This document shows positions 2,241 through 62,025 of a stretch of 64,000 nucleotides of DNA, one piece after another. The notes under the pieces are model-generated. The model searched no databases. It saw only the letters and a program-made list of their open reading frames with translations, and had not been told where the DNA came from. The translations under genes were made by a program, and so were the position numbers. This DNA is from Salinispora tropica CNB-440 (GTDB lineage: Bacteria; Actinomycetota; Actinomycetes; Mycobacteriales; Micromonosporaceae), in contig NC_009380.1 in the NCBI RefSeq assembly GCF_000016425.1, forward strand, positions 2,794,144-2,858,143. Direction: 5' to 3'. Position 1 is the first letter of the stretch; each line of letters starts with the position of its first letter.

Positions 2241-3206
2241 TCATCCATCCTTGCTGACGTGGTGAATGGCGTGCCGCAACAGCTCGCGGCCCGGTTGTAC
2301 CGCTCGGTCCAGGGCCGGGGCGAACGGCAACACCGCACCGTCCGGGCGGGTTACCCGACGCGGCGGCGTGTGCAGTCGGATCTGTTCGACCACGGTGGCA
2401 ATGACCTCACCGGCAATGCCGCAGGAGCGGTTGGAGTCGTCAACCACCACCAACCGCCCGGTCCGGGCGACCGAGCCGAGCAGTCCGTCCCAGTCAAACG
2501 GGTAGAGGGTGCGTGGGTCGAACACCTCCACCGAGACCTCGTCGGCCAGCTCTTCGGCGACCGCGAGCGCGTCGTGCACCAGGTGCCCGACGGCGACCAC
2601 CGTCACATCGTCACCGGCTCGATGCACCCGCCCCCGCCCCAACGGCACCGGCACCCGGTCACTGACGTCGGCACGAGTGTCCATCGCCGCGGCCGGCGCG
2701 AACACCACCACCGGGTCGTCGCAACGAATCGCCGACACCAGCAGCCCGTACGCGTCGGCCGGGGTCGCCGGCACCACAGTGGTCACTCCCGCGTGGGTGA
2801 AAAGGCTGTACGGGTGATCGGAGTGCTGCCCCGCCCATCCGGTACGGGAACCAGAGCCGGGCACCAGGTAGGTGACCGGCACCGCGCACTGACCGCCGGT
2901 CATCAACGGGAACTTGTGCGCGTGGTTGACGATCTGTTCGAAGACCAGGAACAGCAACGCCGGGATCTGGAACTCCACCACCGGCCGGGCTCCGGCCATC
3001 GCCGCCCCGGTGGCGAAGCTGGTAAACGCCTGTTCCGACAGCGGGGTGTCCCGGACCCGCTCCGGGCCGAAGCGCTTCAGCAGGCCGGCGGTGACCGCCG
3101 ACGCGGCGACCCGAATGTCCTCCCCGAGGAGGAACACCTCCTCGTCCCGGGCCAACTCGTCGGCTAGCGCCCGGTTGAGCGCCTTGCGGTATGACAGCCG
3201 CGGCAT
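2241..3206 (-). CDS. ThDP-dependent 2-oxoacid dehydrogenase E1 beta subunit
   Basis: A 321-residue transketolase-like pyrimidine-binding plus C-terminal domain protein of the E1 beta family. Hallmarks are GEDIR near residue 28, the conserved stretch TPLSEQAFTSFATGAAMAG, the region around GWAGQHSDHP, and the C-terminal FDPRTLYPFDWD. With E1 alpha immediately upstream (stop and start abut) it should form an alpha2-beta2 enzyme that decarboxylates a 2-oxoacid onto ThDP. No lipoyl E2 or E3 gene is present. Comparable isolated E1 pairs are known in phenylglycine biosynthesis (PglB/PglC), acting on an aryl-oxoacid. With a hydroxyphenylpyruvate-using enzyme in the same operon, an aryl 2-oxoacid substrate is the leading inference. 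Confidence 0.88.
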   Translation of the reverse strand: MPRLSYRKALNRALADELARDEEVFLLGEDIRVAASAVTAGLLKRFGPERVRDTPLSEQAFTSFATGAAMAGARPVVEFQIPALLFLVFEQIVNHAHKFPLMTGGQCAVPVTYLVPGSGSRTGWAGQHSDHPYSLFTHAGVTTVVPATPADAYGLLVSAIRCDDPVVVFAPAAAMDTRADVSDRVPVPLGRGRVHRAGDDVTVVAVGHLVHDALAVAEELADEVSVEVFDPRTLYPFDWDGLLGSVARTGRLVVVDDSNRSCGIAGEVIATVVEQIRLHTPPRRVTRPDGAVLPFAPALDRAVQPGRELLRHAIHHVSKDG

Positions 3207-4178
3207 CTACCCACCTCCAGTGCGGGCGGTCAGCCCGCTGGCGTACAGGTGCTCCAGTGCGGTGGCCGGGTCGGGCTCGGGGGCGGCGAGGGCCTCGGCC
3301 ACCGCCGCGTCGAGCACCGCCTCCACGTCGGCGTCGACCTTCGCCCGTTCGGTGGCCGACAGCCGCGAGCCGGCGATCCGCACCGGATCCCGGGACCGGC
3401 CGCGTTCGACCTCCTCCACCGAGCGATAGTCGAGGCGGACCGCGTGCTCGAAAGTGTGGTGGGCATCGAACCGGTAGGTCTGGGCCTCCAGGAACTCGGG
3501 GCCACCGCCGGCGCGCATCCGGGTGAGGGCGGCAGCGGTGGTGGCCTGTACGGCGGCCGGGTCCTGGCCGTCCACCACGGACGTCCGAATGCCGAATGCC
3601 TCCGCCCGTGCCGGAATGCTGCCGGCCACCGCGTCGGCCACCGGCATCGTCGTGGCGTAGCCGTTGTTCTCGCACACAAACAGCACCGGCACCCGCCAGA
3701 GTGCGGCCAGGTTGAACGCCTCCAACAGCATCCCCTCGTTGACCGCACCGTCGCCGAGGAAGCTCACCCCCACCAGGTCGTCACCGCGCCGGCGCCGGGC
3801 CCAGACGGCGCCGGTGACAATCGCGCCACCGGCGCCGACGATGGCGTTGGCGCCGAGCACCCCGACCGCGAAGTCGGCAGCGTGCATCGAGCCGCCCCGG
3901 CCCCGGTTCAGGCCCGTAACCCGACCGCACAGTTCCGCCATCATCCGGGCTGGATCGGCCCCCTTCGCGAGCACGTGGCCGTGCCCCCGGTGGGTGCCGG
4001 CGACCACGTCGTCGGGGCGCAGCGCCGCACACACCCCGGCCGCGATCCCCTCCTGGCCGACGTACGGGTGGATGCCGCCGACGATGTGGCCGGAGCGGAC
4101 GAGTTCAATCGCCCGCTCCTCAAACCGGCGGATCAGCCGTACCGTGCGGTAGAGCCGGACCGAGCCGACTTCGGTCAC
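3207..4178 (-). CDS. ThDP-dependent 2-oxoacid dehydrogenase E1 alpha subunit
   Basis: About 323 residues, E1 alpha fold. The ThDP motif begins GDGAVNEG and ends about 25 residues later at ENN. Other family marks are HPYVGQEGI near the N-terminus, HRGHGH and RGGSMH. The start is the GTG at 4178, whose GTGA overlaps the stop of the DUF3050 gene; the longer reading frame to 4310 is antisense-like sequence inside that gene. It partners the adjacent E1 beta. The family is shared by pyruvate, acetoin and branched-chain enzymes, so sequence alone does not fix the substrate. Its place among aromatic-acid genes argues for an aryl 2-oxoacid. Confidence 0.9.
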
Positions 4179-4987
4179 CCGCGCCCCGCAGCCGCTGCCG
4201 GATTGCCCTTCACCGCGGCCAGGATGTCGTCCCACAGCTTGGCCCGCGCGGCTAGCGCGGTGTTGACCGTGTCCGCGCACTCCTGCCACTTGGTGTCGTC
4301 GTCGCCACACAGGTCGGCGAGCATCTGCATGGCCATCGGGGTGTGCTGCTCACCGTCGACCTCGATGTGCCGCTCCAGGTAGTCGACGAACCGGGTCAGC
4401 CGCCCCGACCGGTGATTGACGGCGACGACCTGGGTGAACATCTCCGGGATCAGATCCTCCCGGCCGAACGCGAACGCGGCGGCCTGGCAGTGCACCGGGG
4501 TGCTCTCGATGATCCGCCAGGTGGTGCCGGCGAAGGCCGCGGAGGGGGCGGGAACCCCCGCCTCCGCCAACGACTCGGTGACCGACTGGCCAGCACGCAA
4601 GAGTTCGACCAGCTTGTCCACGGGCTTGGTGTCGGCGCCGGCCTCGGTCATGCCCTGCACATACAGCTCGAAGTGGCTGAGGAATCCACTACCCAGCTCG
4701 TCGCTCTCCTCCACCATCACGATGTCGTTGATCAGACGGCGACTTCCGGTCGGCCCGGTCGGGATCCACGGCACCGTCACACAGGTGAGCTGCCGTTGCA
4801 GCGACTTGAGCAGGGACATGAAGTCCCAGACCGCGAAGACGTGGTGCTCCATGAAGGTCACCAGCGCCGCGTGGGTGTCGAGACTGGCGTACAGCGGGTG
4901 CTGGACCACCGTGTTCCGGCGGTCGGTCACCGCCTTCTCCAGCCGCTCGATTCCGGGGTGCGTCTTTCCCCAGTCGTACCGTGACAT
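4175..4987 (-). CDS. DUF3050-family heme-oxygenase-fold protein, possible diiron oxidase
   Basis: 270 residues matching the DUF3050 family, a member of the heme-oxygenase-like superfamily that also holds non-heme diiron oxidases. Candidate metal ligands are EHH near residues 47-49, an EE pair near 93-94 followed by HFELY (His105), and a C-terminal [11 protein letters not shown] segment with His207, Asp211 and His215. The ligand-rich helices suggest oxidative chemistry such as C-C cleavage or N-oxygenation, which is an inference. It overlaps the E1 alpha start and sits 3 bases after the PhyH oxygenase, so the two oxidative enzymes are co-translated. Confidence 0.75.
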
Positions 4988-4990
4988 GAC

Positions 4991-5920
4991 TCAGCCTCCC
5001 TGCTTGGCGTGGTGGCGCCAGATGACCGGGCAATATTCGGGGTCCGCGTAGTCCGGCCGACCGTCGTCGGTACGGCGAACAAGCACGTCGTGGTTGTACG
5101 CGGCGTTTTCGCCGGTGGAGAGCGGATACGCCCGCCAGCTGTTGTCGCCGTCCTGCAGGTGCAGTGAGATCGCCTGGCGGGGCCGTCCGCTGACGTTCGC
5201 ACCGCTGCCGTGATAGGTCCGGCAGTGGTGGAAGCTCATGTGCCCCTTCGGGATCACCATCGGGATCTTCCGGACCTCGGCGTTGTTGTGTCCCGCGTTG
5301 CGGGCCAGCATGTCGTCGAGTTGGTTGCGGTCGCGGTCGGCGAAGTGCCGTACCACGGTGTCGTCGGCGCCGACCTCGGCCCACCGGTGCGAGCCGTCGA
5401 CCATGACGATGGTGCCCAGTTCCTCCCCACAGTCATGGAATGGGATGAAGGCGGTCAGCATCCGCTCCGACGACGAGGACGCCCAGTAGTGCTTGTCAAA
5501 GTGCCACGGCACGATGTTCGACGGCTCCCCGTCGATCGGTGGCTTGAAAATCAACGTGGACTGGAAAATCCGGATCTCGTCGGCCTGTGCCAGCCGGGCG
5601 GCGACCGCGCCGATCAGCCGCTTGCGCAGGAGCGCCCCGAGCCCGTCGTGCTCGTGGTGGACGTAGTCGTTGTGCCGCTGCACCGCGCCCTTGGCCGGCT
5701 CCCAGTAGGCAAGCTTCGGGGGCCGCACCGGTAGCCGGCGGTGTCGTTCACCGGCGTAGTACCGGTCGGTAGCCGCGGCGAGAGCGTCCACCTCGTCGTC
5801 GGTGAACAGCTTCTTCGACAGATACCAGCCGTGCTCGGCGTAGAACGCCACGTCCTCGTCGGACGGAAGCAACGACTTTTCCTCATCGGTCAGATGCAGG
5901 TCGAAATCAGTAGTGGTCAT
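4991..5920 (-). CDS. phytanoyl-CoA dioxygenase (PhyH)-family Fe(II)/2-oxoglutarate oxygenase
   Basis: 309 residues. The facial triad is visible as HFD (His140, Asp142) in PWHFDKHYW and the distal His237 in TYHGSG, with arginines about 9-11 residues later for 2-oxoglutarate. It would hydroxylate, desaturate or epoxidise a small molecule or a carrier-bound intermediate. Its start overlaps the stop of the HMS/HPPD-like gene (ATGA type), placing it firmly in the operon. The substrate is unknown; tailoring of the KS product or of the aryl starter are both possible. Confidence 0.85.
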   Translation of the reverse strand: MTTTDFDLHLTDEEKSLLPSDEDVAFYAEHGWYLSKKLFTDDEVDALAAATDRYYAGERHRRLPVRPPKLAYWEPAKGAVQRHNDYVHHEHDGLGALLRKRLIGAVAARLAQADEIRIFQSTLIFKPPIDGEPSNIVPWHFDKHYWASSSSERMLTAFIPFHDCGEELGTIVMVDGSHRWAEVGADDTVVRHFADRDRNQLDDMLARNAGHNNAEVRKIPMVIPKGHMSFHHCRTYHGSGANVSGRPRQAISLHLQDGDNSWRAYPLSTGENAAYNHDVLVRRTDDGRPDYADPEYCPVIWRHHAKQGG

Positions 5921-7020
5921 CCCGTCACCTCCTGGGTAGCGGCGACACCGCCGGCCGAGGCCGCCACCGCCAGTTCCCGCTCCTTGGCCTCGTAGAGCGC
6001 CTTGATATTGCCGCTGCCGAAGGTCTGTGCCCCACGCCGCTCGATCAGCTCCAGGAAGAGCGTGCGGCGCACGTGCATCGACTCCGTGAAGATCTGCAGC
6101 AGTTGACCGTCGTGGTCCCGGTCGACCAGCACACCGAACTCCCGCAACTGGTCCACAGACCCGTCGACCCGGCCGACCCGGGTCTCAAGGTCGTCGTAGT
6201 AGGCCGCCGGCGTGCGCGCGAACCGAAGCCCTCGCTGACGCATCGCGCCGATCGCCTCGATGATGTCGTTGGTACGCAACCCCAGGTGCTGCACTCCCGC
6301 GCCCGAGTGCTGGGCAAGGAATGCATCGATCTGCCCAGCCCGCCGGTTGGTGTCCGGCTCGAGGAGCACCAGTGTCACCCGCCCGGACGGGCACTGCACC
6401 ACGGTGGAGTTCATCGCCTGGCCGCCGACCTCCACGTACTCGTGGAAGATCTCGTCGAAGCCGAAGACCTCCCGGTAGCCGCATACCGTCTCGGCGAGCT
6501 GCCCGGGCGGCACGCACACCGCCAGATGGTCGATCTCGACGAGCAGGTCCTCGGCGGTCTCCGCTACCGGCGGCAGCTCCGCCAGGCCCGGCAGGAAGTC
6601 ACGACCGCCCCGACGGCGCTCGACCAACCGGTGCCGCACGTCGGCGAAACCTTCCACCTCGGCGATGACGACCTCCGCGTCCGCGCTGGTGACGGTGGTG
6701 GGTGGCAGCGCACCGACCGCGCCCCTGTCCAGCAGTTCGGCGTACGCCTTGGTGGCGTCGTCAACCGCCAAGGCGACCACAGCGATGCCATCCCCGTGCC
6801 GCCGCACATATTCCGCCGCCGGATGATCGACGGTCAGCCCGGAGGTGAGCAGCAACCGGATGTCGGCGTGCCGTAGCAGCAGCGACCGCTGCCCGGTCAG
6901 CCCGGTCTCCGGGCCGCCCTGACCACAGAGCCGCATCCCCACCCCGTTGCCGAAGTAGAAGGCAGCCTGACTGGCGTCACCCACATAGAATTCGATGTGG
7001 TCTATGCCACGGATGTCCAT
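5917..7020 (-). CDS. 4-hydroxymandelate synthase / 4-hydroxyphenylpyruvate dioxygenase homologue
   Basis: A 367-residue two-domain vicinal-oxygen-chelate protein. The Fe(II) triad is His165 (EIDHLAV), His245 (VQHLGL) and Glu324 (LFLELIERRG), followed by the family signature TFGSGNIKALYEA. Triad spacing of 80 and 79 residues matches what I recall for Amycolatopsis hydroxymandelate synthase better than for HPPD. Both enzymes use 4-hydroxyphenylpyruvate and O2; HMS gives 4-hydroxymandelate, HPPD gives homogentisate. The start is the ATG at 7020 with AAAGGG six bases upstream. No mandelate oxidase or hydroxyphenylglycine aminotransferase gene is nearby. Its position inside a secondary-metabolite operon favours HMS-type starter supply. 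Confidence 0.85.
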   Translation of the reverse strand: MDIRGIDHIEFYVGDASQAAFYFGNGVGMRLCGQGGPETGLTGQRSLLLRHADIRLLLTSGLTVDHPAAEYVRRHGDGIAVVALAVDDATKAYAELLDRGAVGALPPTTVTSADAEVVIAEVEGFADVRHRLVERRRGGRDFLPGLAELPPVAETAEDLLVEIDHLAVCVPPGQLAETVCGYREVFGFDEIFHEYVEVGGQAMNSTVVQCPSGRVTLVLLEPDTNRRAGQIDAFLAQHSGAGVQHLGLRTNDIIEAIGAMRQRGLRFARTPAAYYDDLETRVGRVDGSVDQLREFGVLVDRDHDGQLLQIFTESMHVRRTLFLELIERRGAQTFGSGNIKALYEAKERELAVAASAGGVAATQEVTG

Positions 7021-7088
7021 CTCCCACCCTTTCCCACAGATCCCCCGTGCCGGTCGTGCGGGCACCCCGCCCGCGAAAGGTTGCACCG

Positions 7089-8333
7089 TCAACTCCGCGG
7101 CCGGGTGGCCCGCGAGAGCAGCAGGCTGACGTTCTGCCCCCCGAAACCGAAGGAATTGGTCAGCGCATAGCCGGTCTCGGTCGCCCGGGGCTCCTTACGG
7201 ATGTGATCAGCCGGGCATGCCGGGTCCGGGTCGTCGAGGTTCCAGGTCGGCGGTAGCAGGCCCCGCCCGAGTGCCAGCGCGGTCGCCGCCGTCTCCAGTA
7301 CGCCGGAGGCCCCGAGCAGGTGACCGGTGAGCGCCTTGGTGGAGCTGACCGGCACCCCATTCGTGCCAAAGACCTCGGTAAGTGCCGTGATCTCGGCGAT
7401 GTCGCCGAGCTTGGTCCCGGTGCCGTGCGCGTTGACGTAGCCAACCTCGGCCACCGGCACCGGTACGCCGCGGCCGCTGAGCGCCCGCCGGATGGACTCC
7501 GCCGCGCCGGTGCCGTCCGGCCGGGGTGCGGTCGGATGGTACGCGTCGGTCGTCACGCCGTACCCGGCGATCTCGGCGTACCCGGGGGCGCCCCGGGCCG
7601 CGGCGTGGGCGGCGCTCTCCAGCACCAACAGCGCCGCTCCCTCGGCGAGCACGAAGCCGTTCCGGCGGAGGTCGAACGGTCGGCTGGCCTCCGTCGGGTC
7701 AGCCCACCCCCGGGCAAGGGCCCGGGCGTTGCCGAAGGTGTCCGCGAAGGTGGGAAAGAGCGGCGCCTCGCTGGCCCCGCAGAGCACCACGTCGGCCTCG
7801 CCTGCCTGGATCAGCCGGACGGCGTCGGCGACCGCCTGGACGCCGGAGGCGCAGGCGGTGCCGACCGAAGAGCTGTAGCCCCGAATGCCGTGCCGGATCG
7901 CGATCCGGGCCGACGGCATGTTCGGCAGCACCCCGGTGAGCAGGTACGGGCTGACTCCCGCTCGCCCCCGGGCCGCTCGGGTGAGCACCTGCGTCTCCAG
8001 GGTGGCCAGCCCACCGACCCCGCCGACGATGACCGCCGTCCGTTCCGGGGCCACGTCCCGGCCCACCTCGATGCCGGCATCGGCGAAGGCATCCGCGGCG
8101 GCGAGCAGAGCAAGCAGCACGATCCGGTCGAGGACCTTGGTGTCCGGACCAGACGACACCGACCGCGGATCGATCGCCGGCAGCAACCCCGCGACCTCCA
8201 GGGTTCCGGCTGCGGGGTGGTCGGCCGGCAGGTGCGTCAGCCCGGAGCGGCCGGTGCACAACGCGTCGAAGGTGGCCTCGGCACCCCGGCCCACCGGGGT
8301 GTGTAAACCCATCCCGGTGATGACCGCGGTCAT
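7089..8333 (-). CDS. FabF-like beta-ketoacyl synthase with intact catalytic residues
   Basis: 414 residues, thiolase-fold KAS I/II family. The nucleophile is Cys161 in TACASG, with His303 in NAHGTGT, Lys333 and His338 in STKALTGH, so the C-H-K-H set is complete. It should catalyse decarboxylative Claisen condensation of an acyl unit with malonyl-ACP. It is coupled to the upstream ligase (stop/start overlap) and lies 68 bases before the HMS-like gene. It is not a KS-alpha/CLF pair member of the spore-pigment type; together with the variant KS downstream of the ACPs it forms a separate set. Confidence 0.92.
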   Translation of the reverse strand: MTAVITGMGLHTPVGRGAEATFDALCTGRSGLTHLPADHPAAGTLEVAGLLPAIDPRSVSSGPDTKVLDRIVLLALLAAADAFADAGIEVGRDVAPERTAVIVGGVGGLATLETQVLTRAARGRAGVSPYLLTGVLPNMPSARIAIRHGIRGYSSSVGTACASGVQAVADAVRLIQAGEADVVLCGASEAPLFPTFADTFGNARALARGWADPTEASRPFDLRRNGFVLAEGAALLVLESAAHAAARGAPGYAEIAGYGVTTDAYHPTAPRPDGTGAAESIRRALSGRGVPVPVAEVGYVNAHGTGTKLGDIAEITALTEVFGTNGVPVSSTKALTGHLLGASGVLETAATALALGRGLLPPTWNLDDPDPACPADHIRKEPRATETGYALTNSFGFGGQNVSLLLSRATRPRS

Positions 8334-9946
8334 CGGGACGCCTCGCTCAGGTAGCGCTCCCGCAGCGCCACCTTGCGGACCTTGCCCGTCACCGTGACCG
8401 GGATGTCGGCAGAACGAACCGGGACCACCCGCCGTAGGGTCGCCCCGACCTCACCGCCCAGCGCCTTCCGAACCGCCGCGGTACGGTCGGCGCTCCCGTC
8501 CGCGTCGGTGGCCAGTTCCAGCAGCACGTCGGTGACGACACCGGCCGGCTGGCGCACCATGACCACCGTGCAGTCGGTGACGTCGGGGCAGGCGGCGAGG
8601 ATCCGTTCCTCGGACAACGCGGTGTAGAAGCGCTTCCCGTCGGGCGAGTCGACCGAGTCGACCGCCCGGTCCAGGTGGTAGTACCAACCGTCGGCGTCGG
8701 CGTAGACCAGGTCCCCGGTCAGATACCAGCCGCGCTGGCGGAAACGGTGGGTGGTGACCGAGTCGTTCCAGTACCCGCGGAACAACGACGGCGAGTCGAT
8801 GCCCAGCCAGCCAGCCTCGCCCGTCGGCACCGGCTCACCCGCCGCGTCCAGCACGGCGACCTTCGTGAACCGGTACGGCCGGCCGATGCACCGTCCGTAC
8901 CGGTCGGTCTCCTGGGTGTGGGTGATGTGGAACATGGAGTGTCCCATCTCGGAGGAGCCGAGACCGTCGATGAACACCGAGCCCGGCACCCGGGTGAGAC
9001 CCGCGCGGGTCACCACGTCCCGGGAGCCGACCGACACCAGATGCCGGATGTGTGGCTCGTGCGACGAGTCGCCGGTGTTGAACCACAGCCGTACCGAGTC
9101 CAGGTCGTACCCGGACAGGTCGCACCGGGCCAGCTCGGCCCACGTGACCGAGAAGCCGAACACCCCGTCCGGGCGCCAGCGCTGGATGGCGTCGAGAACC
9201 TGTTCTCCACCCTGGTCGGAGAGGAGGAGCATCTCCGCACAGTTACCGAGCACCTGGTTGACCATGAGTACGGTGGCGGTGTGTGGGGCGGGCAAGGCGC
9301 TCAGGATCCGGCTGGTGCCCTGGGCCTGCGGCATGCTCAGCAGGTGTCGGGTCGCCGCGAAGAGGCTGGCGTGCGAGTGCAGCACCGCCTTCGGCACTCC
9401 GGTGGTGCCGGACGTATGAGTGATCACGATCGGATCGTCCGGGTGGTGCCGGTAGTGGGCGGGCGCCCCGGCTGGGTCACCACTGCCAGCCTCGGCCGGC
9501 GTGCCGAGCACCGGGACCCCAAGGTCGTGTTCGGCGAGCAGCCCACGATGTTCCTCATCGGCGAGCACCGCGACGCCACGCAGCCGTCGGATGTACTCGG
9601 CGGCGATCGTCGGCCGTAGCCGCCCGTTCATCAACGCCGGGATCGCGCCGAGCCGGGTCAGCGCGAGATAGCTCAGCACCATGTCCGCGGTTGCGGTGGC
9701 CCAGACCGCCACCGGGTCACGGGAGCCGATGCCCCGTTCGTGCAGCCAGGCGGCCCGGGCTGCCACCTGGCGGTCAAGCTGTCCCAGCGTTAGCGCCGTC
9801 TCCGCGGGGTGCCCGTCCAGCGGTGTGTCGAACGTCAGGCAGGGCATGTCCGGGTCGGCGCCGTGGGCAAGCACCCGCTCGAGCACATTCCCGGCGCCGA
9901 TGTGGTTGTCGGCGGCGAGCAGCCCACGGATTCCCCTGGGTCTCAT
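8330..9946 (-). CDS. AMP-dependent acyl/aryl-acid ligase
   Basis: 538 residues of the ANL superfamily. The phosphate-binding loop is THTSGTTGVPKAV, the hinge-region motif is GWYLTGDLVY, and the C-terminal catalytic Lys lies in VTVTGKVRK. It would adenylate a carboxylic acid and load it on CoA or on one of the ACPs in this operon. Its start overlaps the stop of the stand-alone ketosynthase domain gene and its stop overlaps the ketosynthase gene. An aromatic or fatty acid substrate cannot be told apart by eye. It is one of two ligases in the locus. Confidence 0.9.
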   Translation of the reverse strand: MRPRGIRGLLAADNHIGAGNVLERVLAHGADPDMPCLTFDTPLDGHPAETALTLGQLDRQVAARAAWLHERGIGSRDPVAVWATATADMVLSYLALTRLGAIPALMNGRLRPTIAAEYIRRLRGVAVLADEEHRGLLAEHDLGVPVLGTPAEAGSGDPAGAPAHYRHHPDDPIVITHTSGTTGVPKAVLHSHASLFAATRHLLSMPQAQGTSRILSALPAPHTATVLMVNQVLGNCAEMLLLSDQGGEQVLDAIQRWRPDGVFGFSVTWAELARCDLSGYDLDSVRLWFNTGDSSHEPHIRHLVSVGSRDVVTRAGLTRVPGSVFIDGLGSSEMGHSMFHITHTQETDRYGRCIGRPYRFTKVAVLDAAGEPVPTGEAGWLGIDSPSLFRGYWNDSVTTHRFRQRGWYLTGDLVYADADGWYYHLDRAVDSVDSPDGKRFYTALSEERILAACPDVTDCTVVMVRQPAGVVTDVLLELATDADGSADRTAAVRKALGGEVGATLRRVVPVRSADIPVTVTGKVRKVALRERYLSEASR

Positions 9947-10461
9947 GGTCGGTCTCCTCCCCCCAGCAGCACGGCGACGGCTGACTCCGCATCACCGTCG
10001 TCGGGTGCCGTGTCGATCAGGATCAGCAACACCGCGTCGGCGTCGCCGTCGTACAGCAACAGGTCGGCCTCGGCGAGCCCGGCTGCCCGAGGGTCGCCGG
10101 CCGGTGCGAGGCAGACCACCGGTCCACCCAGCCCCCAGCGGGCGGCCAGGTGGCCGACCACGCTGTTCGGCACCGACTGGAAGAAGAACAGCGGTCCCGG
10201 CCGACGGTCAGCGGCCACCGCTGCCCGCACGTACGTCGCGCTGGCCTCGTCGCCGGTCGGGCTGACCAGCACGATCGCGGTGCGCTCTCCATCAGGGGCC
10301 GGCGCGGCCCGGTATGCCCGGCGGAGGCACCGATCTGCTACCGCCGCCACCAGCGGGTTGAACGCCGAGTGGACGAATCCTGGTAGCGGTGGCGCCGCGC
10401 CGTCACCCGACTCCGGCCAAGCCGCCTCAGCCCGCACCGTCGGTCCATCCGGCCCGGTCAC
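9943..10461 (-). CDS. stand-alone ketosynthase N-terminal-like domain (Ketoacyl-synt_2 type)
   Basis: About 172 residues. The protein has FVHSAFNPLV, ERTAIVLVSPTGD and FFFQSVPNSVVGHLAARW, which resembles the N-terminal half of chain-length-factor-like ketosynthases (the family annotated as beta-ketoacyl synthase, N-terminal 2, in aryl polyene and related clusters). No cysteine nucleophile motif is present and the C-terminal half is missing. The start was set at the GTG at 10461, whose GTGA overlaps the stop of the variant KS. It is probably a structural or chain-length partner of one of the adjacent ketosynthases. The longer reading frame to 10887 is shadow sequence of the neighbouring gene. 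Confidence 0.7.
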   Translation of the reverse strand: MTGPDGPTVRAEAAWPESGDGAAPPLPGFVHSAFNPLVAAVADRCLRRAYRAAPAPDGERTAIVLVSPTGDEASATYVRAAVAADRRPGPLFFFQSVPNSVVGHLAARWGLGGPVVCLAPAGDPRAAGLAEADLLLYDGDADAVLLILIDTAPDDGDAESAVAVLLGGGDRP

Positions 10462-11537
10462 GTCGCACCCAGCAGCAGGGCAGTGCTCGCGCCGCCGAAC
10501 GCGGCGTTGAGGGTGAGCGCGTAGCCGGTGGCGGCCGGACGCGGCACGTCCCGGATGACATCGAGCGGGCAGTCGGGGTCCGACCCGAGCCAGCCGGCGT
10601 TCGGCGGCAGCTCGCCGCGCCGCAGCGCGAGCACCGTCACCACAAGTTCCAGCAGGCCGGACGCCTCCAGGGCATGTCCATGCAGGGATTTGGTGGAGCT
10701 CACCGGTACCCGCCGGGCCATCGGGCCCAGCGCGGTCCGCAACGCCGCCGCCTCGGCCGCGTCGCCCGGTCCGGATCCGGTGGCGTTGGCATTGACGTAA
10801 CCGATGTCCTCCGGGCAACGGTCGGCGCGGGCCAGCGCGGCCCCGATCGCCCGGGCCAGGCCACGGCCCTTCGGTTCCGGCTGACACGGGTGGAAGGCAT
10901 CACCCGCCCGCCCCCAGCCGAGCAGGCCGGCGATGGGTCGACGGGCGACGTCGGCGCGTTCCAGCACCACCGCCGCCACTCCGTCGCCGAGTAGCAGACC
11001 GGTACGCCCGGCGCTGAACGGACGCACTGCCGCATCGGTGGCGAGCGCCCGGCCGACGTCGAAGAGGGCGTACTGGTCGGGCTCGACCAGGTAGCCGGCG
11101 GCGACCACGGCGCGGTCGACCTTGCCGCGACGTAGCAACGCCGCCGCGTCGGCGACCGCGTTGGTTCCCGAGACACACGCCGTGGTGTACGTGCGCAGGG
11201 CGGGGAAGCCGGTGGCCGCGGCGAGGCCCGCGCCCAATGCCGGCACGGACCTCCCGCCGTGCACCGCGAGCAGCAGTGCCGCGTCAGCCCGGTCCGACGC
11301 GGTGAGCCCCGCCGACCGGCACGCCACCGTCACCGCCTCGGCCAGTTCGTCAGCGAGGGTTCCGGTCTCCGGCAGGGTGGCCGCCGCGTTGACCCGCCGG
11401 GCGCCGGTGTCGAACCGACGGACCGGCCGGAACGCGGGGATTCCGGCAAGCATCCCGGCCACCTGCTCCTCGGCGCCCCGACCGAGTGCACTGGTCGCGT
11501 GGACACCGGTGAGGAGAACATCGGCCGGCTCAACCAT
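10458..11537 (-). CDS. variant beta-ketoacyl synthase lacking the first catalytic His
   Basis: 359 residues, short for the family (about 410). Cys121 is kept in TTACVSG, and Lys283 and His288 in STKSLHGH. The first active-site His motif, NAHGTGT in the neighbouring KS, reads NANATGS here, so that His is Asn251 and the following Gly is Ala. The protein is therefore neither a classical KS (C-H-H) nor a classical chain length factor (no Cys). It may be a condensing partner, an acyl-transfer KS or a specificity factor. The start is the ATG at 11537, overlapping the stop of the ACP gene. The family call is firm, the activity unknown. Confidence 0.85.
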   Translation of the reverse strand: MVEPADVLLTGVHATSALGRGAEEQVAGMLAGIPAFRPVRRFDTGARRVNAAATLPETGTLADELAEAVTVACRSAGLTASDRADAALLLAVHGGRSVPALGAGLAAATGFPALRTYTTACVSGTNAVADAAALLRRGKVDRAVVAAGYLVEPDQYALFDVGRALATDAAVRPFSAGRTGLLLGDGVAAVVLERADVARRPIAGLLGWGRAGDAFHPCQPEPKGRGLARAIGAALARADRCPEDIGYVNANATGSGPGDAAEAAALRTALGPMARRVPVSSTKSLHGHALEASGLLELVVTVLALRRGELPPNAGWLGSDPDCPLDVIRDVPRPAATGYALTLNAAFGGASTALLLGAT

Positions 11538-11769
11538 CGGCGGTGGCCAGGGCGGTCTGGAAGACCACCAGTGCGTCGTCAACGGTGCGGATCCCGGCGA
11601 GTTGGTCGTCGGTGAGGTCGAGTCGTCGGTCAGAGCGCTGTTCGACCAGGTGCACAAGCCAGGCCAGCTCCATCGAGCCGATTCGCTCGGGCACGTCGGT
11701 GGGTCGATCGGTGAGCTGGGCGAGCATGGCCACCAGGTCGACCCGCCCCAGGGCGGGCTCGCCGGCCAT
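11530..11769 (-). CDS. acyl carrier protein-like, atypical GSM attachment site
   Basis: 79 residues, acidic and four-helix-sized. The likely phosphopantetheine site is Ser in IGSMELAWL: the serine and the following hydrophobic helix are kept but the usual Asp before Ser is Gly. It overlaps the ACP upstream (TGATG) and the KS downstream. It could be a dedicated starter carrier, or a degenerate partner that is not modified. The divergent PPTase in the locus would be the natural modifying enzyme. Confidence 0.7.
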   Translation of the reverse strand: MAGEPALGRVDLVAMLAQLTDRPTDVPERIGSMELAWLVHLVEQRSDRRLDLTDDQLAGIRTVDDALVVFQTALATADG

Positions 11770-12035
11770 CAGGAGTGGTCGCCCGGCGCCCCGGCAACCC
11801 GGTTGGCGACCATCGTGGTGAACTCGCCCACCGTCATCAGAGCCAGCTTTTCCGACTCTTCCTCGGCGAACGTCAGTCCATACTGGTCCTCGACGCGGAC
11901 CGCCAGGTCGGCGAGGGCCAGGGACTCCAGGTCCACTCCCGCTGGACCGAGAGTGGCATCGTCGTCAACCCCCTCCACGTCGTAGTTCATGTCGGTAAGT
12001 TGCTCGATGACGAAGGCGCGAACCTCGGCTCTCAT
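11769..12035 (-). CDS. acyl carrier protein, first gene of the KS/aryl operon
   Basis: 88 residues with a canonical-looking helix II start, GVDLESLALADLA, where Ser follows Glu. A good Shine-Dalgarno (AGAGAGG, seven bases before the ATG at 12035) lies in the 16-base gap shared with the divergent PPTase. It carries the growing chain or starter for the ketosynthases of the operon. As the first gene of an approximately 11-kb coupled transcript, its promoter must lie inside or overlap the PPTase coding region, since the gap is too short to hold one. Confidence 0.88.
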   Translation of the reverse strand: MRAEVRAFVIEQLTDMNYDVEGVDDDATLGPAGVDLESLALADLAVRVEDQYGLTFAEEESEKLALMTVGEFTTMVANRVAGAPGDHS

Positions 12036-12051
12036 TGGTTAACCTCTCTCC

Positions 12052-12747
12052 GTGAACCTGTCACCGGTGCCGGATCGGGACACCGTGTATGTGTGGATCG
12101 GTTGGGAAACTGACGGTCGGCCGGCTTCAGCCGGGCGGCTGCTGCGACAGGCCGCCGCTGGTGTGCTGGGCTGCCCGGAGGCGGACATCGTGGTGAACCA
12201 CCGGGCCGATGCCGCTGCCCTGGTCACAAGGGACACCGGTTCGGGCCGGGTCACCGTGCCGGCGAGCGTGAGCCGTGGCGGCGGAGTGACGGCGGTCGCC
12301 GTCCGGACCGGCGGGCCGGTGGGGGTGGACGTCGAACGGTGCCGCCAGCTGCCCGTGCTGGGCCTGGCCCGCCGCTGGTATGGCCCGACCGAGGTGGCCT
12401 GGCTCGCCGCCCGGCCCGTAGCGGGACGGAGTCGGGACTTCCTGCGGTTGTGGACCGCGAAGGAGGCCGTCGGCAAGGCCCTCGGCCTTGGACTGCGCGC
12501 CGGAGGACCGCGCCGCCGGATGCCGGTCCCCGACACTGGACGGATGTGCCCGGTGCCCGATGTCGCCGATGTGTGGGTGGGCCATCCCCACTGTCCCGGA
12601 GCGCTGCTCCTCGCGGTGGCGGTGGTCGGCGGCGAAGCCGAGGTGGTCGTCGTCGGGGAGGCGGAGCGGCCCGGTCATGAGGTCCCTGCCGTCCGCAGCA
12701 TGTCGACCGACCGGACCAGCTTGCCGGTGGTCGTGCGGGGCAGCTGA
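12052..12747 (+). CDS. Sfp-type 4'-phosphopantetheinyl transferase
   Basis: 231 residues. The Mg/CoA motifs are VGVDVERC in the middle and FLRLWTAKEAVGKALG in the C-terminal half, diagnostic of the Sfp/AcpT family. It converts apo-carrier proteins to holo form using CoA and most likely serves the two ACPs next door. The start is the GTG at 12052; no Shine-Dalgarno fits between it and the divergent ACP, so a leaderless transcript or a slightly later GTG (12067 or 12085) is possible. Its last 73 bases overlap the 3' end of the convergent acyl-AMP ligase. Confidence 0.92.
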   Translation: MNLSPVPDRDTVYVWIGWETDGRPASAGRLLRQAAAGVLGCPEADIVVNHRADAAALVTRDTGSGRVTVPASVSRGGGVTAVAVRTGGPVGVDVERCRQLPVLGLARRWYGPTEVAWLAARPVAGRSRDFLRLWTAKEAVGKALGLGLRAGGPRRRMPVPDTGRMCPVPDVADVWVGHPHCPGALLLAVAVVGGEAEVVVVGEAERPGHEVPAVRSMSTDRTSLPVVVRGS

Positions 12748-14075
12748 TCGAGCAGCCGCAGGGTACGGGGCCGCTTGTAGCCGGCCAGCCGCTCGGCGAC
12801 CTGCTGGTCCAGGGTCTCCTCGGTGAGTGTTCCCACCGGCTGCACGTATGCGGTGATGCCGTCGTCCCAGACCACCACCGCGGCGGCGACCCCCGGTAGC
12901 TCGGCGACCGTGTTCTCCACCTCGGTGAGGTCGACCTTCATCCCGCCGACCGAGACTTGGGAGTCGAGCCGGCCGCGAATGGTCACCAGGCCGCTGTCCG
13001 GGTCGACGGTGCCCGCGTCCCGGGTGTGTAGCCAACCGGCGGACCAGCGGGACGGATCGGTGGAGCCGAGGTACGGGGAGGTGGGGCAGCTTACCCACAA
13101 CTCGCCGGCCACTTCGCGCACCTCGATGCCGGGGGCCGGGGTGATCGCCGGGCGGTGCCGTCCGTACAGGTCGGTACCGATGACCCCAACCTCGGTCATC
13201 CCATACATGTTGCCCAGCGGCACGCCGAAGCGCTCGGTGAAGGAGCGGACCGTGGCGGCCGAGACCAGTTCACCACCGGTGACCATCCGAGCGAACATGG
13301 GCAGTGGGCGGTCAAGCTGAGTCGCAGCCAAAAGTCCGATATGAAATGGCACGCCGAGAACGGTCGCTGGACTGTCAGCTGCGCCAATCGCATCGAGTAC
13401 CGCCGCACCGCTGAGTCGTTCTGGCGGGACCAGTTCGACGCCGGCGTGCAGCCCGTAGAGCAGGCCACCGACGAGGCCGAGCACGTGCACCATGGACGGA
13501 AGCAGGATGAGCCGTTCGCCGGGTAGTGCCACGCCGTCGAGCTGGGTGTAGCGACGTACCTCTGCGACGAGGTCGGCGGCGGTCCGACCAATCACCTTGG
13601 AGGGTCCGGTGGATCCGGAGCTGAGTTGGATGACCGCGTGGTCGCTGGTTGCCGGGCGATCGGCATAGGGGGCTACCCCCTCAGTGACATCGACGAAGAC
13701 CCGTAGTGCGGCGTTGCCGGCGCGGACCGGTGCCACGACCACCTGTGGGGTGAGCCGCCGCAGCGCACGGTCGGCCTCGTGGTCAGTCAGACGGTGGTCC
13801 AGCAGGATGGCCTGCGCGCCGCTACGCCAGGTGGCGAGCAGGTTCACCACATATGCCAGGGACGGCGGCAGCCGTAACGCGACAGCACCCCCAGCGCGCA
13901 GACCAGCGGCGGCGAGGCGGGTCTGCGCCTCGGTGACCAGCCGGTGTAGCGTGCCCCGGTCAACCGGGTCGGGTAGCCGGAGGCAGACGTCGACCGGTTT
14001 GCCGGTAAACAGAAAATCGTCTATCCAGCCGGGATCGATCGCATTCGAATCGCGGGACGAGGGGTTCCCGTTCAC
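12675..14075 (-). CDS. second AMP-dependent acyl-CoA/ACP ligase
   Basis: 466 residues, somewhat short for the ANL family. Motifs in order are LSSGSTGPSKVI, YGMTEVG, GWLHTRDAGTVD, RGRLDSQVSVGGMKVDLTE and the Lys of PRTTTGKLVRS. It activates a carboxylic acid as adenylate and thioester. It starts at a GTG (14075) and is separated from the type II PKS operon upstream by an intrinsic terminator near 14193, so it needs its own promoter in 14076-14192, where a perfect 6-bp-arm inverted repeat sits. It overlaps the convergent PPTase by 73 bases. Confidence 0.9.
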   Translation of the reverse strand: MNGNPSSRDSNAIDPGWIDDFLFTGKPVDVCLRLPDPVDRGTLHRLVTEAQTRLAAAGLRAGGAVALRLPPSLAYVVNLLATWRSGAQAILLDHRLTDHEADRALRRLTPQVVVAPVRAGNAALRVFVDVTEGVAPYADRPATSDHAVIQLSSGSTGPSKVIGRTAADLVAEVRRYTQLDGVALPGERLILLPSMVHVLGLVGGLLYGLHAGVELVPPERLSGAAVLDAIGAADSPATVLGVPFHIGLLAATQLDRPLPMFARMVTGGELVSAATVRSFTERFGVPLGNMYGMTEVGVIGTDLYGRHRPAITPAPGIEVREVAGELWVSCPTSPYLGSTDPSRWSAGWLHTRDAGTVDPDSGLVTIRGRLDSQVSVGGMKVDLTEVENTVAELPGVAAAVVVWDDGITAYVQPVGTLTEETLDQQVAERLAGYKRPRTLRLLDQLPRTTTGKLVRSVDMLRTAGTS

Positions 14076-14428: not shown

Positions 14429-14788
14429 TCAGGGCAGAGTGGGGGTCTGGGCGAGAATGTGGAAACGGAGGGAGCGGGCGTCGGTGAAACACTCGCGCAT
14501 CGGGCGGACCAGGTCACGGTGCTCCGAGCTCCGTTCCCACGCCTCGAAGTCCGCCAAACTCGCCCACTCGCTGGTGATCAACCACTGCTCCGGGTCCGCC
14601 GCCGACCGGCACACCTGGTCAACCCGGTGTCCCGGCACCCCGCCAGCGACGAGGTGCCGCACCGCCTCGTACGCGGCCAGGAACGCCTCCGTCCGCTCGA
14701 CTGGCACCCGCACCAGGAACACCACCCGCGCCCGTGCCGCACCGGCGCCAGACCGGGTCGCCGCGTTCCGTTCGTCCAGTTCGGTCAC
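14429..14788 (-). CDS. ABM-domain monooxygenase/cyclase-like protein (whiE ORFI type)
   Basis: 119 residues of the antibiotic biosynthesis monooxygenase (ABM) fold, seen in VVFLVRVPVERTEAF, the central EQWLITSEWASLADFEAWE and the C-terminal FHILAQ. Small ABM proteins act in aromatic polyketide pathways as cofactor-free oxygenases or ring-closing helpers. It overlaps the start of nothing downstream and is the last gene of the minus-strand type II PKS operon; its ATG overlaps the stop of the KS-beta gene. A role in oxidising or folding the spore-pigment polyketide is inferred from position. Confidence 0.8.
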   Translation of the reverse strand: MTELDERNAATRSGAGAARARVVFLVRVPVERTEAFLAAYEAVRHLVAGGVPGHRVDQVCRSAADPEQWLITSEWASLADFEAWERSSEHRDLVRPMRECFTDARSLRFHILAQTPTLP

Positions 14789-16032
14789 TGCTCACCACCG
14801 TCACTCGGCGCCGCCCCAAGCAGGACCAGCGCACTGTTGAACCCGTCGAAGCCGCGGGCGCAGACCAGGGACAACCGGTTCACCGGCGGCCGCTGCTCCC
14901 GCAGGAAGTCCAGCTCGCACCCCGGCGCGACCTCATCCGGTCCGGCGGACGCGGGCAGCGTGTCATGGGCGAAGGCGAGCAACACGGTCGCCACGTCCAA
15001 GGCGGCTCCCCCCTGGTGGGCCCGTCCGGTCAGCGACTTCTGGGTGGTGACCGGGGGCAGCCGGTCCCCGAAGACAGCCCGCAGCGCGACCGCCTCGCTG
15101 CGGTCATAGCGCGGCACTCCCAACGCGTCGGGCACCACCACGTCGACCGCGTCCGCGCCGACACCGGCCCGATCCAACGCCAGCCGCATCGCCCGGGCAT
15201 ACTGCCCCGGATCGCCCGCTCCATCCGCGGTGGTGTGCGCGCCGTCGTGGGTGGCGCCCCACCCCATCACCTCACCGTAGACACGGGCCCCGCGGGCCAG
15301 CGCATGGCTCAACTCCTCCACGACGAAGACCGCACCCCCCTCCGCCGGCAGGTAACCACTCGCCGCCACGTCAAACGGTCGGTACGCCTGCTCCGGGTCC
15401 GCCCCCTCGCTGAGCATCCCGGAGGCCAGCTGACAGGCCAGCGCGTACGGGCTCAACGGGCACTCGGTCGCCCCAGCGATCACCACCGGAGTGCCCCGGC
15501 GGACTGCCCGGGCGGCGTGCGCCAAGCTGTCCAGCCCACCCGCGGTCTCGGCCACCAGCACCCCGCACGGCCCCTTGAACTGATGGTGAATCGAGAGCTG
15601 GCCGACGCTGGCGGCGTAGAACCAGGCGATCGACTGGTACGCCCCGACCGTCCGGGTGGACCCTCCCCACAACCGTTGCAGTTCCCGCTGCCCGAACAGG
15701 TTTCCCCCGGACGAGCTGGCCAGGGCGACCGCATAGCCATACGGGTCCGGGGCCCGCAGGGGCAACCCCGCGTCGGCCAGGGCCAGCCGGGTAGCGGCGA
15801 ACCCGAGGTGTGTCCAGCGGTCGGTCTGCACCAGCCGACGGTTGTCAGCGTAGGCAGCGGCGTCGAATCCCGACACCTCGCCGCCGAAGCGGGTCGGGTA
15901 GCCGGACGGATCGAACAGCGTGATCGGCCCGGTACGCCGGGTCCCGGTGAGCACCGTCTGCCAGTGCGCGTCCACGCCGACGCCGCTCGGCGCGACCACC
16001 CCGATCCCGGTCACCACCGCCCGCGCGGTCAC
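14785..16032 (-). CDS. type II PKS KS-beta (chain length factor) with Thr at the usual Gln position
   Basis: About 415 residues with the ketosynthase fold but no Cys: the segment aligned with the KS-alpha nucleophile reads AETAGGLD, putting Thr163 where antibiotic chain length factors have Gln. It pairs with KS-alpha to set polyketide chain length and supply the malonyl-decarboxylation function. The start is the GTG at 16032, overlapping the KS-alpha stop (GTGA), as usual for this pair. The order KS-alpha then KS-beta, with cupin and cyclase genes upstream, matches whiE spore-pigment loci. Confidence 0.93.
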
Positions 16033-17300
16033 GCCGTCACCGCCGACAACCGCCGGAACACCATCGCTGACTGGAAGCCGCCGAATCCGCTGCCGACCGA
16101 CAACGCCACGTCCACCGGCAGCTCCCGCGCCTCGTTCGGCACGTAGTCCAAGTCGCACTCCGGGTCGCGGGTCGCCCAGTTGGCCGTCGGCGGTACCACG
16201 CCGAACTCGATCGCCAGCGCGCAGGCGGCCATCTCGATCGAACCGATCGCACCGAGGGAGTGCCCAACCATCGACTTGATCGAGCTGACCGGCACCCGGT
16301 ACGCGCACTCGCCGAGCGCCCGTTTGAACGCGGCGGTCTCATGCCGGTCGTTCTGCCGGGTTCCGGAGCCGTGCGCGCTGATGTAGGAGACCTGGTCGGC
16401 CCGGATGTGTCCCTGGCCGAGCGCGTCGGTGATGGCGAGCCCCATCTCCAGACCATCCGGGCGTAGCCCGGTCATGTGGTAGCCGTTGCTGCGGCTGGCG
16501 TACCCGGCGACCTCGCAGTAGATGTGCGCGCCCCGCCGCCGAGCCCGCTCCTCCTCCTCCAGCACCAGCACCGCGGCGCCCTCGGCGAGGACAAAGCCGT
16601 GCCGGTCGGCGTCGAACGGGCGGGAGGCGTGCTCCGGGTCGTCGTTGTCGGGGCTGGTCGCCTGGATAGCGTCGAACGAGGCGACGGTAACCGGGGAGAT
16701 CGGCGAGTCGGCGGCACCGGTGAGCACCACGTCGGCCTCGCCGTCGACGATGAGCTGATGGGCATAGCCGATCGCGTCGATGCCGGACGTGCAGCCGGTG
16801 GAGACCACCTGAACCGGCCCGTGCAGCCCGTACCGGCAGGCCAGGTCGGCACCGAGGCTACTCGGCACCAACGCCTGGTACAGGTAGGGGCCGCCACGGG
16901 CGGCGTCAACCAGCCAGTGCTGGCCGCTGTCGCTGACCGTGACGTACTCCTGCTCCAGCGCCATCGTCCCACCAACGGCGGTGCCCAGGACCACACCAGT
17001 GCGATCACGCAGCGCGTCGGTGAAGTCCAGGCCGGCGTCAACGACCGCCTCGGCCGCGCAGGCGAGCGCGAACTGCACGTACCGGTCAGCACGACGATAT
17101 TCGGTGATGCTGAGGCCAGCAGCCACCGGCTCGAAGTCGCACTCGGCGGCGATTCGCGACCGGAACGGTGACGGATCGAAGAAGGAGATCCGCCGGGTCG
17201 CCGTCCGCCCCTCGGTGATCGCCTTCCAGAACCGATCCCGAGTGGCGCCACCCGGCGCGACTACCCCGACGCCGGTCACCACCGAGCGGCGCCCGGTCAC
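16029..17300 (-). CDS. type II PKS KS-alpha
   Basis: 423 residues. The active site is complete: Cys170 in STGCTSG, His310 in ISAHGSGT, Lys342 and His347 in IKSMVGH. With KS-beta it forms the minimal PKS that condenses malonyl units on the ACP. The arrangement and the accompanying genes (cupin, ACP-aromatase, TcmI-type cyclase, FAD hydroxylase) suggest a spore pigment of the whiE class. It is separated from the upstream cupin gene by about 110 bases containing a 43-bp direct repeat. Confidence 0.96.
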
Positions 17301-17314
17301 GGTGCCACTCCGTT

Positions 17315-17412
17315 TCGCGACCGCGGGGCTCGCACACCCGGCTCACTCCTCGCGCTCCGCACCTCCACCACTCGCGACTGCGGGGCTCGCACACCCGGCT
17401 CACTCCTCGCGC

Positions 17413-17414
<2 letters not shown>
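17315..17414. repeat. two direct copies of a 43-bp intergenic repeat
   Basis: Copies at 17315-17357 and 17372-17414 begin TCGCGACCG or TCGCGACTG and end TCCTCGCGCTC; I see one mismatch. They fill most of the gap between KS-alpha and the cupin gene, and the second copy runs two bases into the cupin stop codon. They look like a dispersed intergenic repeat of Micromonosporaceae genomes. Confidence 0.85.
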
Positions 17415-19905
<2,491 letters not shown>

Positions 19906-19918
19906 CAGCCCACCTGCC

Positions 19919-20493
19919 TCAGACCGGATCCACCGCGAGCAGCGGCTGGTCGTACTCCACCGGTTGACCGTCGTCGGCGAGGACCTCGGCGATTCGCCCG
20001 ACCCGATCGGCGGTCACCTCGTTCATCAGCTTCATCGCCTCGACGATGCCGACGACCTGGCCGGGGTGGACCCGATCTCCGACGGCGACGAACGGCGCCG
20101 CGCCGGGCTCCGGCGCCCGATAGAAGGTGCCGACGATCGGTGACCGCACGGCGTGCCGAGCCGCGGGTACGGCGACCGGCTGTGGGGGGACGACCGGCTG
20201 CGGGGCGCGGATCGATGCCGCCGGGGACGGGGGCACGTGCTCGGCGTCACCCGCCGAATGCCACTCCACCTCCAGGATCGCCTCACCGCTGCCCAGCCGG
20301 ATCCGCCGCACCGGCCCGGCCAGGTCGGCGAGGAGTTCCTGGGCTTGTCGGCGCAGCTCCGCCAGCGCGGCATCCGCCGAAGCGCCGGATACCTCGGTCG
20401 GAGTGTCATCGAAGGTCCCATCGGACTGGGATGCCGCGTCCGCCGCCGCATCACCCTGGAGGTCCGGCACGCCGGTCGGCGCCAGTTCGGCGC

Positions 20494-20497
<4 letters not shown>
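19919..20497 (-). CDS. accB: biotin carboxyl carrier protein
   Basis: About 192 residues. The biotinylation motif EAMKLM has Lys156, in a C-terminal lipoyl/biotinyl domain that begins near VRSPIVGTFY. An Ala/Pro-rich linker precedes it, and a helical region near residues 40-62 resembles the N-terminal AccB segment. The start was set at the ATG at 20497, which overlaps the accDA stop; the frame extending to 21025 is a shadow of accDA. It shuttles carboxybiotin between AccC and AccDA. Confidence 0.93.
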
Positions 20498-22190
<1,693 letters not shown>

Positions 22191-22194
<4 letters not shown>

Positions 22195-22523
22195 GGCTGG
22201 TTGCCAGGAGCGTCGAACCGGTACACGCACCGGGCCATCGCGTCTCGCGGCTCCCGCCAGGTCGGCAGGTACGGCGAGACGTACGGGCGAAGCCGCTCGC
22301 TGACCCGAATGAACTCCGGGTGACACCGGGCCTCTGCGACCGCGTTCTCCCCCGGCAGCTCTGTCTCCAGGAGGTGCAGATACAGGTCTTGCAGCCGGTA
22401 CAGCGACCGGTGCTGGACCCCGGCCAAGCGAGGCAACTCGGTCGCGTCGGACTCGGCGAAGATCTCGGCGATCCGCTCCTCCGCGCTCGGGTCGACCTTC
22501 GCGACAATCAACGAACGCTCCAT
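22191..22523 (-). CDS. TcmI-type polyketide cyclase, copy 1
   Basis: 110 residues of the TcmI/WhiE ORFVII cyclase family, recognised by AEIFAESDATELPRLAG, RSLYRLQDLYLHLLE and SPYLPTWREPRDAMA. It closes later rings of the aromatic polyketide. The start is the ATG at 22523 with GGAGG eight bases upstream, making it the first gene of the minus-strand operon. A clear paralogue is encoded divergently at 23824-24171. Confidence 0.92.
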
Positions 22524-22915
22524 CGATGAACCTCCCCCAACGGCTTCGGGCACCGGTGGCGCCGTACGCCGACAAGCCGGACGACTATGCGCACCATGGC
22601 GGCGCCACCGTCACCGGCGCGTCACCGGACTCGTCTCCGGCCCAGACTTTGGTGACGGTGCGTTGACGCTGACTGTGTAGGAGCTGTGACATGCAACCTG
22701 CACATAGTGCCTATCCCCAGTTCGGAGCGGGTTTCACAGCAGTTACGCACCCGTCGGGACGTTGACGGTGCGTGACCAGATTGATAATCTCCGTCACGGT
22801 TAACCCGGTCGCCGTGACCCGACGCCGTGCCGCGGGATCAGCTACCCGACCTGTGGGGTCACGGGCAGCCGCGCCGGGGGACACACACCGAGGAACATTC
22901 CGCAGGGGGTCCGCC
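22524..22915. promoter_or_regulatory. divergent control region of the type II PKS locus
   Basis: 392 bases without a gene between copy 1 cyclase and the SARP. It holds four TGACGG elements: TGACGGTGCGT on the plus strand at 22653-22663 and again at 22763-22773 (110 bases apart), TGACGGTG on the minus strand at 22606-22613 and TGACGG on the minus strand at 22791-22796. They are candidate SARP operator repeats. Confidence 0.55.
22762..22788 (+). promoter_or_regulatory. candidate SARP gene promoter
   Basis: TTGACG at 22762-22767 and GATAAT at 22783-22788 are spaced 15 bases, close to a housekeeping -35/-10. The -35 overlaps one TGACGGTGCGT element, and the -10 lies within the near-palindrome AGATTGATAATCT, which would suit autoregulation. 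Confidence 0.45.
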
Positions 22916-58517: not shown

Positions 58518-58568
58518 GACAGGGTCCTCTCGCTCGGGATGATCGGGCCTGACCACACGAGCACACCC

Positions 58569-61752: not shown

Positions 61753-62025
61753 GACGGGATCCTCTCGCTCGAGGAGTGGTGCTGGGGCCGGGCCGCACGA
61801 GCACACCCCCGAGTAACATTCTCAACGCATACCGAATATCCCGCGTCGGCTCACGCGCTGTCCGCCGAGCGCCAATCGGCACGCCGTGCCGCTGCCGCCC
61901 CCATGGCCCGATCCTTGTTAACGTGAGTACGCGGCGACGCCGCCTGCCGGCACTCCCCCTCGTACCTGGCACCGACCGCACCACCCTTCGGCCCGGCGGA
62001 CCGGTTGACGGACGAGGGAGACGAC
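61753..62025. other. upstream region of MFS copy 2 and hypothetical gene
   Basis: 273 bases between the divergent genes. It contains the decayed operator GAGTAACATTCTC at 61811-61823. No other gene or hairpin is evident; a promoter for the plus-strand gene must lie here. Confidence 0.5.

Follow-up and report, generated by a model that had tools for sequence, protein, structure and literature searches.

The free-standing ketosynthase KSN of Salinispora tropica CNB-440, in which the first catalytic histidine is replaced by asparagine, belongs to a family whose members mostly (66 of 74) are short of exactly one triad histidine, the first in one group and the second in the other. The 74 sequences (66 in the first tree and eight added later) comprise 41 with a Cys-Asn-His triad, 25 with Cys-His-Gln, 8 with Cys-His-His and none without any triad histidine. 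The lost residue is always replaced by an amide, either asparagine or glutamine, that is fixed within its group, and the remaining histidine is invariant. Our tentative reading is that KSN and a half-length chain-length-factor-like (CLF-like) partner, CYF, may act as a non-elongating acyl shuttle between two carrier proteins.

The window analyzed here is a 64,000-nucleotide stretch (positions 2794144-2858143 of a 5,183,331-base single-contig genome), and the genes of the operon are listed in Table 1. A sequence-only reading of this DNA had reported that NANATGS takes the place of NAHGTGT in KSN with Cys121, Lys283 and His288 kept, and translation of 10458-11537 on the reverse strand confirms it, giving the motifs TTAC(121)VSG, VNAN(251)ATGS and SSTK(283)SLHGH(288); the neighboring ketosynthase was correctly described as intact, as KS2 (7089-8333) reads NAHGTGT with both histidines present. 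The alignment supports an ATG start for KSN at 11537, and a mechanical list of open reading frames offers a TTG at 11657 as an alternative. The conservation of Asn251 is far beyond chance, since no full-length relative from Salinispora, Micromonospora or Kribbella has anything other than asparagine at the first-histidine position. A base-call error or a pseudogene was rejected as the origin of Asn251, given this conservation, the codons used (AAC in KSN, AAC or AAT among relatives) and a clear purifying selection on the gene (dN/dS 0.23-0.32 for KSN and 0.11-0.19 for KS2). Cys121, Lys283, Phe347 and the GG that follows Phe347 are invariant across the aligned KSN relatives, which together with the purifying selection indicates that KSN is a working enzyme. 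Its AlphaFold model (pLDDT 83.8) matches the FabF fold with a Z of 46, the FabF equivalog TIGR03150 scores 194.8 bits against a curated cut-off of 493.75, and a segment of ∼35 residues in the N-terminal half is missing from KSN and kept in outline by CYF.

Orthologues in other Micromonosporaceae genera and in a Catenulispora bin keep the first histidine (NAHGSG) and have glutamine in place of the second (HGQ). The Cys-His-His triad occurs in second copies in two genomes (L119, L129) from a single genus within the same family, five genomes (L149, L150, L153-L155) from a single genus within the same class and one other genome (L152). On a tree built without the active-site columns, in which deep branches are weak, the fewest changes are five among the three triad states, or three between single-histidine and two-histidine forms, and the single-histidine forms may or may not be one clade (AU p 0.378). 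The two groups may have arisen separately from a two-histidine ancestor or by a swap. The possibility that a histidine is supplied from another position, named earlier as a refutation, finds no support in the alignment, where no column gains an invariant histidine in the asparagine group. His286 (of the HGH motif) was also rejected as a rescue of the histidine lost at 251, as most members of each triad group carry it; it is absent from one Cys-His-Gln member, which has valine there, and from three Cys-His-His members.

Table 1. Genes of the KSN operon and its divergent neighbor, in window coordinates.
Feature	Coordinates	Strand	Basis or remark
E1 beta, 2-oxo acid dehydrogenase subunit	2241-3206	(-)	PF02779/PF02780
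E1 alpha, 2-oxo acid dehydrogenase subunit	3207-4310	(-)	PF00676
DUF3050, haem-oxygenase-like	4175..4987	(-)	PF11251
PhyH family dioxygenase	4991..5920	(-)	PF05721
4-hydroxyphenylpyruvate dioxygenase (HPPD) family enzyme	5917..7092	(-)	TIGR01263, 332.7 bits, above NCBIfam cut-off
KS2, intact stand-alone FabF-type ketosynthase	7089..8333	(-)	Cys-His-His
AMP1, adenylate-forming enzyme	8330..9946	(-)	nearest NCBIfam model AvaA6, 483/975 bits
CYF, half-length CLF-like partner, 172 aa, without active Cys	9943..10461	(-)	PF13723
KSN, FabF-type ketosynthase	10458..11537	(-)	359 aa; Cys121-Asn251-Lys283-His286-His288
S79, second carrier protein	11530..11769	(-)	orthologue alignment; IDSLELAWLVHQVEQRYG motif in relatives, GSM here
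ACP2, acyl carrier protein, DLESLALA motif	11769..12035	(-)	PF00550 just below cut-off; alignment
4'-phosphopantetheinyl transferase, divergent	12052..12747	(+)	PF01648
AMP2, second adenylate-forming enzyme	12675..14075	(-)	conserved, operon head

Adjacent genes from ACP2 through KS2 share 1 to 8 bases, and the core AMP2-ACP2-S79-KSN-CYF-AMP1-KS2 is preserved across genera. The operon type that carries a single-histidine KSN consists of two carrier proteins, KSN, the half-CLF, AMP ligases and the intact ketosynthase, followed by HPPD, PhyH, DUF3050 and E1 alpha/beta, genes that are missing from the seven Cys-His-His loci with sufficient flanking DNA; the annotated genes of 869-22575 include no ketoreductase or dehydratase. 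Pfam gives no match for S79, and it is its orthologues that display the carrier-protein motif; where most relatives have DSL or DSM, the Salinispora copies compared have GSM, a difference that may affect phosphopantetheinylation. An aromatic type II KS/CLF set (14785-22575) adjoins the operon in Salinispora and Micromonospora and is absent from the DNA examined around the Kribbella copy. The CLF of this set (14785-16032) has threonine, not the usual glutamine, at the place of the ketosynthase cysteine, and aspartate and arginine at the two histidine positions. The same genome holds a second set of ketosynthase and ketosynthase-like genes (L067 3836-9580; G000:C1:3193835-3199579), one of which bears a weak resemblance to AmcG (35.8 bits), next to genes that by eye resemble FabZ-type and SDR-type enzymes. 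Farther along the window, two very similar MFS-like transporter genes lie a few kb apart (57303-58556 and 60538-61806), by eye an apparent duplication. Literature searches found no paper naming this cluster, nor one placing DUF3050 with a ketosynthase.

The partner of KSN would probably be CYF. The two genes overlap by 4 bases and are translationally coupled, and the CYF model (pLDDT 81.6) has ApeC (6qsp_B) as its best fold match, followed by 7f28 and Iga12 (6kxd_B). The proposal that KSN might serve as a partner to the intact ketosynthase is not supported, the coupled half-length protein at 9943-10461 being the likelier dimer partner. Nor is KSN a chain length factor in the sense of a ketosynthase that has lost its active cysteine, for KSN keeps this residue and it is CYF that is without it. 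A heterodimer is suggested by analogy with AmcF-AmcG and ApeO-ApeC. The aryl polyene pathway of ApeO-ApeC and ApeR resembles the KSN operon in having a ketosynthase with a single-thiolase-fold CLF, a second stand-alone ketosynthase and two free acyl carrier proteins (ACPs), but ApeO-ApeC elongates and works with a ketoreductase and a dehydratase (PMC8358021). Of the traits of highly reducing type II polyketide synthases (ApeO-ApeC, Iga11-Iga12), a ketosynthase-fold CLF partner is indicated by the structural matches of CYF, in a complex that is predicted, whereas reductive genes are missing from 869-22575 and the Cys-His-His triad has become Cys-Asn-His.

There is reason to think that such a triad can move acyl chains. 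KS3 of HtmA1, a KS0 domain from the trans-AT polyketide synthase that makes hangtaimycin, has Cys-Asn-His and is a proven transacylase that needs its cysteine and cannot extend, and changing the cysteine stops the pathway (PMC8456789). Like KSN it keeps the cysteine, and because it moves a chain from ACP to ACP, a shuttle between ACP2 and S79 is the reading favored here. KSN and CYF would form a heterodimer whose Cys121 accepts the acyl chain of one carrier protein and, without lengthening it with malonate, passes it on, most likely between the tandem carriers ACP2 and S79; holding or activating the thioester, as well as the thiol that comes in, would fall to the remaining histidine and the amide at the other triad position, and carbon-carbon bond formation would be left to the intact KS2. 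We infer that elongation is lacking and in which direction the chain is passed; judging from the HPPD and E1 genes, the substrate may be an aryl acid. Counting toward this shuttle are the invariance of Cys121, the loss of one histidine at opposite positions, the location of ACP2 and S79 directly upstream of KSN, the lack of ketoreductase and dehydratase genes as against a ketoreductase beside the Cys-His-His relative in L156, and the Cys-His-His triad of KS2, which is kept in 49 of 49 orthologues for which the triad is covered in full.

Other observations count against the shuttle. In each group an amide invariably fills the vacated position and the other histidine never varies, which suggests that the pair still does chemistry. 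Two carrier proteins are not specific to the single-histidine form, since they also stand beside some Cys-His-His members (L130, L156). KSN does share with KS0 domains the kept cysteine and the loss of the HGTGT-motif histidine; however, KS0 domains sit within trans-AT modules (HtmA1 KS3 belongs to a megasynthase with a dehydratase and an ACP), whereas KSN is a free-standing protein beside single-domain proteins, has a half-CLF partner, and has orthologues in the same operon type that keep the HGTGT histidine and lose the second. The acyl-transfer role proposed from the sequence alone is plausible, having a direct experimental precedent with the same triad, and this idea holds up; the sequence-only interpretation taken as a whole is supported in part.

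A less probable reading is that KSN-CYF makes a bond itself, the histidine and the amide forming an oxyanion pocket as in the Cys-His-Asn triad of FabH and chalcone synthase, in a single condensation or a Claisen or Dieckmann cyclization. The earlier statement that a ketosynthase needs both histidines is too strict, as FabH-type Cys-His-Asn enzymes decarboxylate and condense (PMC12664062) and the ketosynthase of the tenuazonic acid synthetase TAS1 performs a cyclization (PMC4640141). The TAS1 domain is, like KSN, a ketosynthase of the polyketide synthase type with one triad histidine replaced by an amide, but there the second histidine has become asparagine, and the domain is fused to a nonribosomal peptide synthetase and cyclizes and releases the product. 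AmcF and its small partner AmcG, from cispentacin biosynthesis, have a similar layout (a short ketosynthase, then a partner of ∼160-170 aa, an ACP and an adenylation enzyme) and carry out one C2 extension and a cyclization (PMC10698177), and the restriction of the replacements to asparagine or glutamine, fixed within groups, also speaks for bond making. Against it, HtmA1 KS3 does not extend, and no other enzyme was found that combines exactly Cys-Asn-His with a functional test; the NCBIfam cut-offs for AmcF and AmcG are also unreached. Indeed, membership in these families (NF058662/NF058659) was rejected at 147.6/325 and 26/80 bits; the likeness to AmcF is one of length, gene layout and profile coverage, the model spanning nearly all of KSN. 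The AmcF profile also matches ordinary ketosynthases, FabF among them, in control genomes that include E. coli, which likewise counted against membership. Both the shuttle and the condensing or cyclizing enzyme are consistent with the data, with the shuttle the likelier.

It is rather unlikely, in our judgment, that a histidine paired with an amide serves one specific reaction equally well whichever of the two positions each holds, the KAS II fold having evolved from Cys-His-His relatives toward a new chemistry, possibly a non-decarboxylative or cyclizing Claisen reaction on an aryl-derived thioester.

We give little credence to KSN as a Claisen enzyme of the non-decarboxylating type, with a thiolase-like Cys-Asn-His arrangement, in which an activated methylene, for instance that of an arylacetyl thioester made via E1 alpha/beta, would be the nucleophile. 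In its favor, HPPD, PhyH or E1 genes accompany 45 of 45 single-histidine loci and none of seven Cys-His-His loci, counting those with enough flanking DNA downstream. However, this link is mostly shared descent, as the tree holds only one or two pairs that are independent; moreover, the alignment contains no conserved new histidine, and the Cys-His-Gln orthologues misfit a thiolase triad. In L156, from another genus, a ketoreductase, an AurF homologue and a chorismate-binding/glutamine-amidotransferase protein lie near a Cys-His-His KSN/CYF pair (2627-13824), and an aminoaryl or nitroaryl starter pathway is possible there.

Least likely of all is a non-catalytic KSN that serves KS2, or the aromatic KS/CLF, as a structural or chain-length partner, for although its triad is weakened and inactive ketosynthase partners are used in type II systems, no relative lacks Cys121, a half-CLF of its own is translationally coupled to KSN, and the operon occurs in Kribbella without an aromatic KS/CLF in the DNA examined.

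KSN is a bacterial carbon-chain-building enzyme of a conserved, uncharacterized cluster, and its triad, taken with the opposite replacement in its relatives, suggests carrier-to-carrier handover or an unconventional joining, not normal lengthening. The operon marks a widespread, uncharacterized actinomycete pathway. Within the same operon type orthologues have lost opposite histidines, so that nature offers a swap experiment on what each of the two does in a ketosynthase, and the case carries a warning that one lost histidine alone is no ground for calling a ketosynthase inactive, or active.
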